Of a DNA stretch of 64,000 bases, positions 7,910 through 12,147 are shown piece by piece (the first letter of the stretch is position 1; every line of letters begins with the position of its first letter). The stretch is from positions 1,178,001 through 1,242,000 of the forward strand of contig NC_010525.1 in the NCBI RefSeq assembly GCF_000019805.1, in the 5' to 3' direction. The translations under genes and the position numbers were made by a program. The notes beneath the pieces are model-generated. The model was given only the letters and a program-made list of their open reading frames with translations, was not told the origin of the DNA and ran no database searches. The stretch is from Pyrobaculum neutrophilum V24Sta. GTDB taxonomy: Archaea > Thermoproteota > Thermoprotei > Thermoproteales > Thermoproteaceae.

Positions 7910-7910
7910 G

Positions 7911-8072
7911 TTTTTCACGTCTTTCTCCAGGCCACTACAATCAATAACACTACCAACATTATTGCTATGTCTTTATGTAATTATTAGATGAGGTACTACC
8001 ACCGCTATTGAGGGGGCGTAGGGTACAATCCTGACTTCACCGTTTTGTGTTTTATACTGTAGAGGGGGGCGG
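7911..8072 (-). pseudogene. Decayed copy of the 3' end of the 179-aa membrane-protein gene
   Basis: About 162 nt here align with 11604-11772, the C-terminal coding end of the intact gene at 11608-12147. Shared blocks include TTTTTCACGTCTTTCTCC, GGCTACAATCCTGA (here GGGTACAATCCTGA) and TTTATACTGTAGAGGGGGGC, in the same order and orientation. The copy carries many substitutions and gaps, has no start codon and no continuous frame, and ends abruptly at about 8072. The two copies are direct repeats bracketing the island 8073-11603. Confidence 0.8.
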
Positions 8073-8138: not shown

Positions 8139-9704
8139 TTAAGTACTATTAAGCCGCCGGGCCTCCACCAACTTAGCGACTCCGCCGGACACCTCTATAA
8201 TTTTCGTGGCGTACTTCGCCGCCGTAGACCGATGAGATATAACTACGACTATAGGAACAACTTTTCTCAACGCATCCAGCACCCTCTCCTCCACCTCTTG
8301 GTTTAGGCCGGAGGTCACTTCGTCCAACACCAGTAGCTGGGGTTTCCTCAATAGAGCTCTCGCTATCAGTACTCTCTGTCTCTGGCCTTCTGAGAGCTCT
8401 GAGCCCCCCTCGCCGCATTTTTTGTCCAGCGGGAAGTCTATCTGGGCTAGCTCGGCGGCTCTCCTCACCTCCTCCTCTGGGAAGTCCTCCCAAAGCGTGA
8501 TGTTCTCACGTACAGTGGCGTCGAAAATATAGTCGTCGTTACCCACGTAGATGGCCCTCGGCGCCTTGATCTCCCCCTCCAGAGGCTTTACCAAGCCCGC
8601 CAAGGCCTTTCCCAACGTCGACTTACCGCTACCAGTAGGCCCGCGCACCCACACGAAATCCCCCGGCCTAAAGACGACGTCAGCGCAACGCAACACCACA
8701 GTTCCGTTGTAGCCCAGCGTAACTCTCTCAACTACTACATGCGCTTCTCCACGCGCTGGCGCTTCAGCCACAACAGCGTCGAGGTGCGGGGCTACTCTTT
8801 CAAACGACCTCTTGAGCTGGTAGTATGAACCTGATTTCATCACTATTTGGGCAAGCGGCTCAAATGCCTCTACCAGAAGGGTTCTCATAGCTACGGCCGC
8901 GCCGACGGTGGCAACTCCCTGTAGTGAAAGGAGCAGACCGAGGCCGAAGGCGAGGTTAGGCACGCCGTATGTGATGGCGTTGGCGCCGAAGCCGAGGGAT
9001 TTTGAGTATAGCTCATACTTTTTGTACCCGGCGAGCCACCTCTCCGAGGCCTCCAGCAGGATTTTGGGCAAGGCCCTCACTCCGGCTCTGTAGAGGCTGT
9101 GGGCCCCGTCCACGACCTCCTTAATTCGCCTAAACCACTGGCTGTAGAGCTCCCTCTCCCTCCTCCCCCACTCCAATATGGGCGGCCCAAGCTTCTTCGC
9201 CACTAAGAGGTACAAAGCTATTAAGGGGGCCACGAAGATGGTGATCTCCGGCGATATGTAGAGCGACGCGGCCACCACGGCTAAGAACCTCGCCGCCTGC
9301 AGAGCCACGTCCAGCGGCAGGGCGAGGTACAACACCACGTTAAGGACGTCACCGCTTATCCGCGACAGAACCTCCCCCCTGCTGTTGCCGGGGGATAGAA
9401 CAGTCGAGTGGACTATGCGGTGCGACACGTCGATGATAGCTCTCTGCGTCCACACCGCCGCTCTGTACTCAGAGAGGAAATTTAAGACGGGTATTGAAAA
9501 GGCGATTCCGACAACGGCGGCGATCTGGAGGACCAGCGCGCTGGCGTCTCTGACCCCGTACACCACCGCGTCGATGACTTGCTTGATGAATAACGCCTGG
9601 ACAACGCCGAGAATTATCATGGCGCCCCACAGCGAGAAAATTACCACCTCGTCTATCCAATACCTCTTTGTAAACTCAAGAACGTAGTACCAATAACTCT
9701 TCAT
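8139..9704 (-). CDS. ABC exporter, fused membrane and ATPase domains
   Basis: A 521-residue half-transporter. Residues 1-300 form a six-helix exporter membrane domain and residues about 325-521 the nucleotide-binding domain, with Walker A GPTGSGKST, signature LSEGQRQR, Walker B LLVLDEVTS and a switch His (VVISHR). No N-terminal peptidase domain is present. It would work as a dimer to export a lipid, drug or peptide. Its ATG overlaps the TGA of the SPASM-like gene upstream (ATGA at 9701-9704), so the two are translationally coupled, which makes a small modified peptide one possible cargo. That substrate is inference only. Confidence 0.88.
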   Translation of the reverse strand: MKSYWYYVLEFTKRYWIDEVVIFSLWGAMIILGVVQALFIKQVIDAVVYGVRDASALVLQIAAVVGIAFSIPVLNFLSEYRAAVWTQRAIIDVSHRIVHSTVLSPGNSRGEVLSRISGDVLNVVLYLALPLDVALQAARFLAVVAASLYISPEITIFVAPLIALYLLVAKKLGPPILEWGRRERELYSQWFRRIKEVVDGAHSLYRAGVRALPKILLEASERWLAGYKKYELYSKSLGFGANAITYGVPNLAFGLGLLLSLQGVATVGAAVAMRTLLVEAFEPLAQIVMKSGSYYQLKRSFERVAPHLDAVVAEAPARGEAHVVVERVTLGYNGTVVLRCADVVFRPGDFVWVRGPTGSGKSTLGKALAGLVKPLEGEIKAPRAIYVGNDDYIFDATVRENITLWEDFPEEEVRRAAELAQIDFPLDKKCGEGGSELSEGQRQRVLIARALLRKPQLLVLDEVTSGLNQEVEERVLDALRKVVPIVVVISHRSTAAKYATKIIEVSGGVAKLVEARRLNST

Positions 9705-10162
9705 ACGTTCTTTGTTAGTAATTCGATATTCTGACCTACTTTGGTCAAAGTGTTAGTTTTAGCAAATTCATAAACCACGCTGAGCATGCCATCATATATA
9801 AGCCTTAGATGTTCTTTACTATTTTCTACTACCTCTTCTGTGTTTTTAAGTGGACATTGTTCAAAGAGCATCTGTGTATAATCTTTAATTAGCACTTCAG
9901 GTAAAATTTTCCTCACAATATATTTATAATTTTGATTTATTTCTTTAATATTATTATGTAACAAGTTGCCTATGCACCCCTTGGACTCGGTAATTAACAA
10001 ATTGCATGTAAAAACGTCGCCATTTGGCGCAATAGATAAAAATTTTTGTCCTGTCTTTATGTCTACTTCTAGAAACGACTGGGAAAAGGGATGATAAACC
10101 ACCCATGCATCTCTATCAATTTTAGAAGGTCCTAATACGTGGTAAGTGGTGCTGGTGATCAT
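9701..10162 (-). CDS. SPASM-like protein lacking a radical SAM domain
   Basis: A 153-residue protein. Residues about 38-75 (FLSIAPNGDVFTCNLLI, then GCIGNLLHNNIKEI) resemble the SPASM/auxiliary Fe-S domain found at the C-terminus of radical SAM peptide-maturation enzymes, where PNG-x-V-x-x-C is followed by GN(I/L). Cys residues occur in FTCN, KGCIG and EQCPLK. The CxxxCxxC radical SAM motif is absent, and the 250 nt upstream hold no such domain in any frame. The DNA is clearly AT-richer than its neighbours, suggesting transfer or decay. The intact frame and ATGA coupling to the ABC exporter argue that it is still expressed. Confidence 0.5.
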   Translation of the reverse strand: MITSTTYHVLGPSKIDRDAWVVYHPFSQSFLEVDIKTGQKFLSIAPNGDVFTCNLLITESKGCIGNLLHNNIKEINQNYKYIVRKILPEVLIKDYTQMLFEQCPLKNTEEVVENSKEHLRLIYDGMLSVVYEFAKTNTLTKVGQNIELLTKNV

Positions 10163-10249
10163 ACCCTTCAGATGTTACAAACCTAAAATACAATGTCTAG
10201 TAACTACTACTGCAGTTGATATTGTAGTTGCAAAACCCATTATAAAAAG

Positions 10250-10348
10250 TTATTGGTAAGGCGACAACATGCCGACGACAATAAAAATCGCAGTAGTGGA
10301 ACTAAATACGCAGATTAAAGAAGCGCTACTGTTCTGTTGCTGATTCAT
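10250..10348 (-). CDS. Possible 32-residue peptide upstream of the SPASM-like and ABC exporter genes
   Basis: An ORF from ATG 10348 encodes 32 residues beginning MNQQQNSSASLICVF, followed by a hydrophobic stretch (AIFIVVGML) and ending SPYQ. A TATA-like box (AATTTATGA, 10371-10379 read on this strand) lies about 27 nt before the ATG, matching the leaderless pattern of the window. It is in the same orientation as, and just upstream of, the SPASM-like and exporter genes, where a precursor peptide would be expected. It overlaps the opposite-strand ORF at 10269-10343. No homology is recognised. Confidence 0.3.
   Translation of the reverse strand: MNQQQNSSASLICVFSSTTAIFIVVGMLSPYQ
10269..10343 (+). 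CDS. Possible 24-residue peptide ending Cys-Cys
   Basis: An ORF from ATG 10269 encodes 24 residues: an amphipathic MPTTIKIAVVELNTQ stretch, then IKEALLFCC and a stop. A strong TATA box (TTATAAAAA, 10240-10248) sits 25 nt before the ATG, the exact leaderless spacing used by annotated genes in this window. It lies antisense inside the 32-residue ORF described at 10250-10348. The promoter is the best argument for a transcript here. Whether the product is this peptide or an antisense RNA cannot be decided from the sequence. Confidence 0.35.
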   Translation: MPTTIKIAVVELNTQIKEALLFCC

Positions 10349-10413: not shown

Positions 10414-11148
10414 TTAACTTTCTACACATATACCTTTCATATTTTCTATTATATTATCAATTATTTTTTCTATTATGCTATTTCCGCTCCTTGTCTCTCT
10501 TACATATTCCTTTATCAGCTGGGTAGCTTTGCAGTATGCCTCTTCCCAGCTCAGCGCTGTCATTTTCTTAAGTACGTAGAGTAGAAATGTAAAGAAGCCG
10601 TAGGCAGGTTCATAGTAGCCTAAGCTTTCCAGACCAACTCCACGTATCCACTGTAACCTATTCTCGTCCTCCGGCACCAGCACGACGCGGTAGAAGAGGA
10701 GGCTGAGCCTCGGCCACTCCCCCAGCCTCGCTAGGTGGGGATCCATATTCTCCCTCGCCTTTAAATCTAGCTCTATCAGCCTCGTAAAGGCCTCATGTCT
10801 TTTCGTCCTAAAGGGCAGGGTGATGTAGAGCTCGTCGCTTAGGTATACGCCGTCTTTCCTAGCCAGAAGTGGGGTGACATGGCCGAAGTTCTCCGCGACG
10901 AAGTCCTCCGTGAGGTAGCCCAGCTCCAGCGTCTTGGACAAGTCCTTGAGCTTTATTAGGTGTTCCCGCCCGAGTCTAATCGCCTTCACCACCCCCTCTG
11001 CCTCTAGTCTATACACGACGTCTCTCACAGTGCTGTAGGGGGCGTTTAGCAAGCGGGATAGATTACGTAGCGTTGTGTCTACATCGTGGTGTTTTATAAA
11101 GAGTAGTTTAACTAACCTCTCCTCAAGACCGCTGGCGCTACGTCTCAT
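10414..11148 (-). CDS. Winged-helix protein with unknown C-terminal domain
   Basis: About 244 residues from ATG 11148 (an upstream ATG at 11154 is also possible). Residues about 10-70 form a winged-helix DNA-binding domain (VDTTLRNLSRLLNAPYSTVRDVVYRLEAEGVV). The remainder is unrecognised and ends in an Ile/Asn-rich helix. The gene overlaps the 3' end of the small winged-helix gene upstream, so they form an operon. The last 100 nt and the DNA beyond are AT-rich. It is probably a regulator of the island genes. Confidence 0.65.
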   Translation of the reverse strand: MRRSASGLEERLVKLLFIKHHDVDTTLRNLSRLLNAPYSTVRDVVYRLEAEGVVKAIRLGREHLIKLKDLSKTLELGYLTEDFVAENFGHVTPLLARKDGVYLSDELYITLPFRTKRHEAFTRLIELDLKARENMDPHLARLGEWPRLSLLFYRVVLVPEDENRLQWIRGVGLESLGYYEPAYGFFTFLLYVLKKMTALSWEEAYCKATQLIKEYVRETRSGNSIIEKIIDNIIENMKGICVES

Positions 11149-11416
11149 AGCCATCTACAAACGCCTTACATATCTCCAGGTCTCTGACTCTGTACAGCTT
11201 AACTCTGCCGACGGGCACCTCCTCGACGAGGCCAAGCCCGCACAGCGAGTCCTCTGCCTTGTACCTGCCGCCTAGCCCCCTCAGGGCCCCTAGGACGTTT
11301 TCGTAGCTGGCGCCTACGGCGTCTGCTATCAGCGCTGGGTAGGCCGACTCTGGGTAGATGGAACAGAGGTATTTCAACACATCTCTCTTCACTCTGCTCC
11401 TCCTGAGGGCCATCAT
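11138..11416 (-). CDS. Small winged-helix transcription regulator
   Basis: From ATG 11416 this gives about 92 residues beginning MALRRSRVKRDVLKYL, with an HTH core (PALIADAVGASYENVLGALR). It may instead start at in-frame GTG codons at 11461 or 11473, adding 15 or 19 residues; the TATA box at 11482-11489 would place a leaderless start near 11461. Two tandem copies of a 10-bp palindrome lie between that TATA box and the gene, the classical position for an autoregulatory operator. The 3' end overlaps the second winged-helix gene. Confidence 0.65.
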   Translation of the reverse strand: MMALRRSRVKRDVLKYLCSIYPESAYPALIADAVGASYENVLGALRGLGGRYKAEDSLCGLGLVEEVPVGRVKLYRVRDLEICKAFVDGYET

Positions 11417-11456
11417 GGCTCTGCCGTATCCCACCCCCCTCCACGACACTGCTGTG

Positions 11457-11478
11457 ATCACATGATCAATCACATGAT
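11457..11478. promoter_or_regulatory. Tandem palindromic operator, 2 x ATCACATGAT
   Basis: ATCACATGAT occurs at 11457-11466 and again at 11469-11478, a 12-bp period. Each copy is a palindrome (ATCA-N2-TGAT). They lie immediately downstream of the TATA box TTATAAAT (11482-11489) of the minus-strand winged-helix operon, where a bound dimer would block initiation. The likely ligand is the winged-helix protein encoded just downstream. Confidence 0.6.
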
Positions 11479-11607
11479 TACTTATAAATTTTTCGCTGGT
11501 ATGGGATTCAACGGCTTTTAGAACGGGAGGGCTCTTATTACCTTCCTGGCAATTTTCAAGTGTAGAATATTAGCGCAGTGGTGAAGGCAATGTTTATGAT
11601 TAGTTTT

Positions 11608-12147
11608 TCACGTCTTTCTCCAGGCCAGTAGTATCAACAACACTGCTAGCGTTATTACCAAGTCTTTTGTGATGATGAGGTGGGGTAGCGCCACGGCTAT
11701 TGAGGTGGCGTAGGCTACAATCCTGAGCTTAGACTTCAGAGTTTCGTGTTTTATACTGTAGAGGGGGGCGGCCGCGTCTACGGCCTTTCTTTCTCTTCTT
11801 ACGAGCGGGTCTTCTACGGTTGGTTCACGTGCTAGCCTTTCTAGAAACTCTCGGGCGTTGTAGCTGTCCTTCAGCTTTGCGAAGTATGTCTTCACCCTTA
11901 GCTCTTTCTCCGGCGCCGCAAGGAGTTTTCTAGCTTTTTTAGCGCCTCTTTTGGCCAGCTCTCGGGAGATGAGGAGCCCCGCCGCCAGTGTGGCCGTGGC
12001 TAGGTACTTTAGCGATGGGTTGAGTACGACAGCTATCCCGCTCGTCATCACGCTTGTCAAAGACGTAATCGATAACACGAGAACCAGCTTGTTGTAGGTT
12101 TTTTCTTCTATCTCCTGTATTTTCTGCGCGATGTAGTCACTTAACAT
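11608..12147 (-). CDS. Membrane protein of a secretion/pilus-type operon
   Basis: A 179-residue protein. Two hydrophobic segments lie at residues about 20-60 (LVLVLSITSLTSVMTSG and following), a charged Lys/Arg/Glu-rich region at 65-125, and two helices at the C-terminus (about 145-175). This layout loosely resembles a shortened TadC/GspF-type platform protein. Its ATG lies inside the end of the secretion ATPase gene (12137-12147 overlap), so the platform role is inferred mainly from context. A broken copy of its 3' end is at 7911-8072. Confidence 0.6.
   Translation of the reverse strand: MLSDYIAQKIQEIEEKTYNKLVLVLSITSLTSVMTSGIAVVLNPSLKYLATATLAAGLLISRELAKRGAKKARKLLAAPEKELRVKTYFAKLKDSYNAREFLERLAREPTVEDPLVRRERKAVDAAAPLYSIKHETLKSKLRIVAYATSIAVALPHLIITKDLVITLAVLLILLAWRKT

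Follow-up and report, generated by a model that had tools for sequence, protein, structure and literature searches.

A SPASM-like protein beside an archaeal ABC exporter is probably the relic of a radical SAM peptide maturase

Background

What is the role of a SPASM-like protein that lacks a radical SAM domain and is encoded directly ahead of an ABC exporter? The question is posed by a locus of Pyrobaculum neutrophilum V24Sta, located in a 64,000-nucleotide stretch of contig NC_010525.1 (positions 1,178,001 to 1,242,000), referred to here as the window. An earlier note took the succession of a short peptide ORF, a SPASM-like ORF and an exporter as a possible minimal RiPP locus. For the SPASM-like protein, it considered cooperation with a radical SAM enzyme from another locus, a binding remnant, or a decaying gene. 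The elements concerned are as follows:

10250..10348 (-), candidate peptide ORF of 32 aa with an ATG start, indistinguishable from chance
9701..10162 (-), putative maturase remnant of 153 aa: about 37-40 N-terminal residues fused in frame to a SPASM-like segment and a C-terminal tail
10037..10054 (-), deletion junction zone (protein residues ~37-42) from the alignment with P0002, the joint being approximate
8139..9704 (-), complete ABC half-exporter of 521 aa (TMD and NBD; Pfam ABC_membrane and ABC_tran)

Results

The 153-aa ORF

The ORF reported at 10162..9701 (-) is indeed present as an open frame; a frame of 153 codons was obtained by chance at the local composition in 0/20,000 cases. Its stop (9704-9701) forms the described ATGA overlap with the exporter start. 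The local GC content is 34-37% against 55-60% in the surroundings, in agreement with the claimed AT-richness, and GC by codon position is 0.41/0.27/0.33 in the AT-rich coding sequence beside the 32-aa ORF. The proposed SPASM resemblance barely passes the Pfam profile check: the marginal match to PF13186 (residues 38-82) scores 22.0 bits with a cut-off of 21.5, and NCBIfam yields weaker, sub-threshold matches to the SPASM parts of peptide maturases.

The CxxxCxxC motif is missing, as the earlier note had stated. The protein contains three cysteines (C53, C63, and C103), of which C53 and C103 align with C341 and C388 of the intact homologue P0002 described below, while the equivalent of C324 is gone; the auxiliary-cluster set is thus incomplete (P0002 has three SPASM cysteines, two of which persist). 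Given the absence of CxxxCxxC and the reduction of the SPASM cysteines to two, radical SAM chemistry by this protein is excluded on the basis of its sequence, and binding of an auxiliary cluster appears unlikely.

An intact homologue reveals the missing part

A genome of the same genus (G009) contains a homologous cassette (G009B) with one intact radical SAM/SPASM frame of 445 aa, P0002. Residues ~1-40 of the window protein correspond to the P0002 N-terminus (aligned 6-41, 57% identity) and residues 41-~151 to its C-terminus (aligned 41-149, 33%; score 129, equalled by 0/2000 shuffles). The N-terminal match stops at residue 40 and the C-terminal match begins at residue 41, although the matched segments lie ~850 bp apart inside the single P0002 frame. 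From the two terminal matches and the shuffle test it follows that the 153-aa ORF represents a P0002-type enzyme without residues ~40-325 (~285 residues), including the CxxxCxxC core. With good confidence, it can be regarded as the relic of a radical SAM/SPASM maturase that has lost its catalytic core by an in-frame deletion. Among the options of the earlier note, the remnant or decaying gene is thus the one favored by the intact homologue. The note had also named an observation that would count against its own reading, namely intact fusion homologues beside a frameshifted copy; such a homologue exists, but the window copy is internally deleted, not frameshifted.

P0002 itself scores 80.6 bits with Radical_SAM (CxxxCxxC being C93/C97/C100), and its SPASM end is weak and cysteine-poor (only C324, C341, and C388). 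Its best NCBIfam models are peptide maturases of the PapB (121 bits), DynA, and SCIFF type, all below their equivalog cut-offs, and its closest PDB match is 5wgg (E=6e-18). A low-confidence structure prediction (mean pLDDT 41.0) places three strands at the N-terminus, followed by helices; the strands would fit a leader-binding (RRE-like) fold, which is not put forward as an assignment.

The order of events could in principle be reversed, with an ancestral short form and a radical SAM core gained by insertion in G009. Short forms are indeed more numerous than intact ones, but the window protein keeps a SPASM segment that in P0002 runs on from the core, and the domains of P0002 come in the usual order for peptide maturases; an insertion is scarcely credible.

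As P0002 is the sole intact homologue found, the ancestral structure is inferred from one protein. Pattern scans of genome contigs and viral contigs, with a reach of close relatives, detected no relatives of P0001 or P0002. Plasmid matches obtained with tblastn were rejected as generic radical SAM proteins (~25% identity). Generic radical SAM matches across the class, which cover mainly the core, were likewise left out of the counts.

A partner encoded elsewhere

The 153-aa protein might instead provide its SPASM-like segment, which has been kept, to a radical SAM enzyme acting in trans, and the complete window genome (1,769,823 bp) does contain 27 Radical_SAM matches. This proposal of the earlier note finds no counterpart in that genome: a second P0002-like protein is absent, and similarity to P0002 extends past the generic core in the remnant alone. 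Other radical SAM proteins reach at best about 31-34% identity to P0002, over about 135-153 residues confined to the core. Moreover, the half that a partner would have to supply coincides exactly with what the window protein lacks in comparison with P0002, the operator pattern of the cassette occurs nowhere else in the genome, and the cluster-binding cysteines are incomplete. A partner in trans is therefore very improbable.

Maturase loss across cassettes

The gene order of the cassette is EarA-like HTH, second HTH, maturase (where present), and ABC exporter. Homologues of the 246-aa regulator define 11 loci in eight genomes of Pyrobaculum and its sister genus, and a homologous exporter adjoins at all 11. 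The maturase is intact at one locus (G009B) and a remnant at three (the window, G005, and G003B); none was detected at the remaining seven. The G005 remnant is a 60-aa ORF, the first 33 residues of which are 67% identical to the window protein, while its tail resembles the maturase tail marginally (P=0.06). The G003B remnant consists of the N-terminal 40 and the last 23 residues, with the deletion at a site orthologous to the intact gene; it is frameshifted, and its sequence reads as a joint that was in frame with the frameshift arising later. In all three remnants, the left edge of the deletion falls at P0002 codons ~37-45. As judged from these loci, relatives within Pyrobaculum have lost the enzyme repeatedly and mostly retained the exporter.

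In the trees of regulator and exporter, the cassettes fall into two types, A and B. Maturase traces occur in both, so the maturase either predates the split or was transferred between the types.

G003B (L071) and G009B (L005) occupy orthologous sites with flanks mostly ~95% identical. The ~400-bp block between their regulators and exporter, which is the peptide/maturase slot, is 52-78% identical, and the synonymous difference of their exporters is 0.15. Divergence of the block thus exceeds the neutral expectation since the split, which suggests that alleles have been exchanged in the slot in addition to deletion; such exchange is probable for this pair. By extension, the maturase block could be an exchangeable cargo slot in which allele recombination outweighs serial decay. 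The unequal divergence of the window cassette and G003A (86% aa identity for the exporter, 65% for the 246-aa regulator) points the same way, as does the AT-richness of the block wherever it is present. Limited pattern scans found no viral or other free copy, and a deletion would have to be assumed for the window copy in any case. Such a slot, which is compatible with a deletion relic, is a serious though tentative possibility.

A function for the short form

Could the shortened protein work without catalysis, binding a peptide for handover to the exporter or acting as a sensor, so that the core became dispensable and deletions were selected? The three remnants share the start of the deletion and an in-frame joint; their start points lie closer together than expected of random breakpoints, which counts against a simple relic. 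The N-terminal 33 residues are better conserved between the window and G005 than the exporters (57% identity), and the window protein still has an open frame. Stops arise in the 153-aa frame from about 5% of single substitutions, and an unconstrained frame would be open with P=0.35 after 0.05 substitutions per site and P=0.05 after 0.15. The open frame may thus reflect either a recent deletion or some selection, and an open, coding-like ORF that reflects selection would also speak against a non-functional relic. On the other side, the G003B remnant is frameshifted, no remnant was detected in seven of the 11 cassettes, the N-terminal conservation may be older than the deletions, and the structure prediction for the window protein is not confident (mean pLDDT 39.8). 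A functional short form is accordingly unlikely. It is somewhat less likely still that the maturase was repeatedly turned into a catalysis-free adaptor, in which the N-terminal strands and the tail would recognize cargo or sense it for the exporter. The maturase relic remains the preferred reading.

Regulators, promoter, and traces of insertion

The remaining elements of the cassette and its borders are:

10414..11154 (-), winged-HTH-like regulator of 246 aa, the conserved cassette partner (11 loci, eight genomes)
11138..11473 (-), EarA-like HTH regulator of 111 aa (PF07381, 72.7 bits), first gene of the cassette
11469..11488 (-), TATA box with the operator-like palindrome ATCANNTGAT, cassette promoter
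7910..8072 (-), decayed direct repeat of ~165 bp, a copy of the 3' end of the gene at 11608-12147

The palindrome immediately follows the first regulator gene's TATA box, an exact arrangement found once in the window genome; exact or near versions occur at most other cassettes. The EarA box TACATA, described in Methanococcus (PMC10665913), has no consistent placement in the cassettes. The original of the direct repeat (11603-11771, minus strand) belongs to a 179-aa gene that is conserved and single-copy in Pyrobaculum. The two copies are 81% identical, the outer one being decayed. As they bracket the cassette, it looks as if the latter was inserted at the 3' end of the 179-aa gene.

The exporter

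The 521-aa exporter has no match to a C39 peptidase domain. Its dN/dS is 0.10-0.14 between the window and G003A, G009A, and G005 (with synonymous sites saturated for G005) and 0.13 between G003B and G009B; the regulator values are 0.13-0.20. Purifying selection on the exporter is seen also in comparisons with maturase-less loci. Exporter homologues with internal stops are found at both loci of G001 (L070 and L075) and at the solitary locus of G002 (L076); in these genomes, the exporter itself is decaying. With purifying selection on it and broken copies in G001 and G002, the exporter is thus kept in most maturase-less genomes. It might serve as orphan immunity, a tentative assignment; otherwise, it would carry other cargo. 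The end of the maturase frame overlaps the ABC start in the window, G005, and G009B.

The candidate precursor peptide

The 32-aa ORF that the earlier note proposed as the peptide exists, but an ATG ORF of equal length appears in 21% of shuffled slots (P=0.21), and its codon-position GC (0.33/0.39/0.49) is unlike that of the adjacent AT-rich coding sequence. At the same place, G009B has a 34-aa ORF (P=0.07) of coding-like composition. The note had suggested checking whether homologues neighbor exporters and short ORFs: the exporter recurs at every locus, while the similarity of the 32-aa and 34-aa ORFs is at chance level (P=0.11). In G003B, the ATG region of the G009B-type ORF is missing. No candidate peptide has an NCBIfam match. 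The intact locus plausibly encodes a precursor peptide; one in the window is unproven.

Regarding the parts of a RiPP locus, the window has the exporter, and its modifying enzyme is not intact and has no paralogue in the genome. Since the peptide is indistinguishable from chance and cassettes with no maturase detected are the commonest form, the proposed minimal RiPP locus is unsupported; a decayed peptide locus is the likelier reading, ahead of a new minimal one.

Discussion

The ancestral cassette was probably an autoregulated operon in which two HTH regulator genes accompanied those of a small precursor peptide (unproven), the maturase, and the ABC exporter. Most of its descendants have a truncated maturase or have lost it, with the regulators and exporter held by purifying selection; in the window copy, homology shows that ~285 internal residues comprising the whole SAM-binding and catalytic core were removed in frame. 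The exporter may have stayed useful without the maturase, most simply by protecting the cell from the modified peptide of relatives, or by transporting a different substrate. A possible reason for the survival of in-frame remnants is that their translation supports that of the exporter, whose start codon shares nucleotides with the final part of the maturase frame.

P0002 shares with SPASM radical SAM peptide maturases (PapB/ranthipeptide, SCIFF, and DynA) the CxxxCxxC core, a SPASM-like end, and a neighboring exporter. It differs in scoring below every equivalog cut-off and in having three SPASM cysteines; the window copy differs further in that the catalytic domain is wholly missing.

Among Thermoproteales, a locus of G055 (L077, 5414-8446) encodes an intact cysteine-rich radical SAM/SPASM protein followed by an ABC ATPase and a permease, and is a candidate archaeal RiPP locus. 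It resembles the present cassette in that a radical SAM/SPASM gene directly precedes ABC transporter genes, and differs in its cysteine-rich SPASM part, its ABC-2-like two-gene transporter, and the lack of a homologue of the 246-aa regulator.

In pneumococcal blp cheaters, immunity or transporter genes survive alongside production genes that are broken or missing (PMC4517551), and orphan enterocin ABC transporters are kept without working production genes (PMC10598978). The likeness to such cheater and orphan-immunity loci concerns the evolutionary pattern only.

What appeared to be a SPASM system free of radical SAM enzymes thus becomes a peptide-modification locus of hyperthermophiles caught at differing stages of loss, with an intact maturase copy retained in G009. 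Repeated loss of the maturase together with retention of a regulated exporter is what one would predict where relatives produce a modified peptide and others have to withstand it. The pattern of loss renders peptide competition in Thermoproteales testable.
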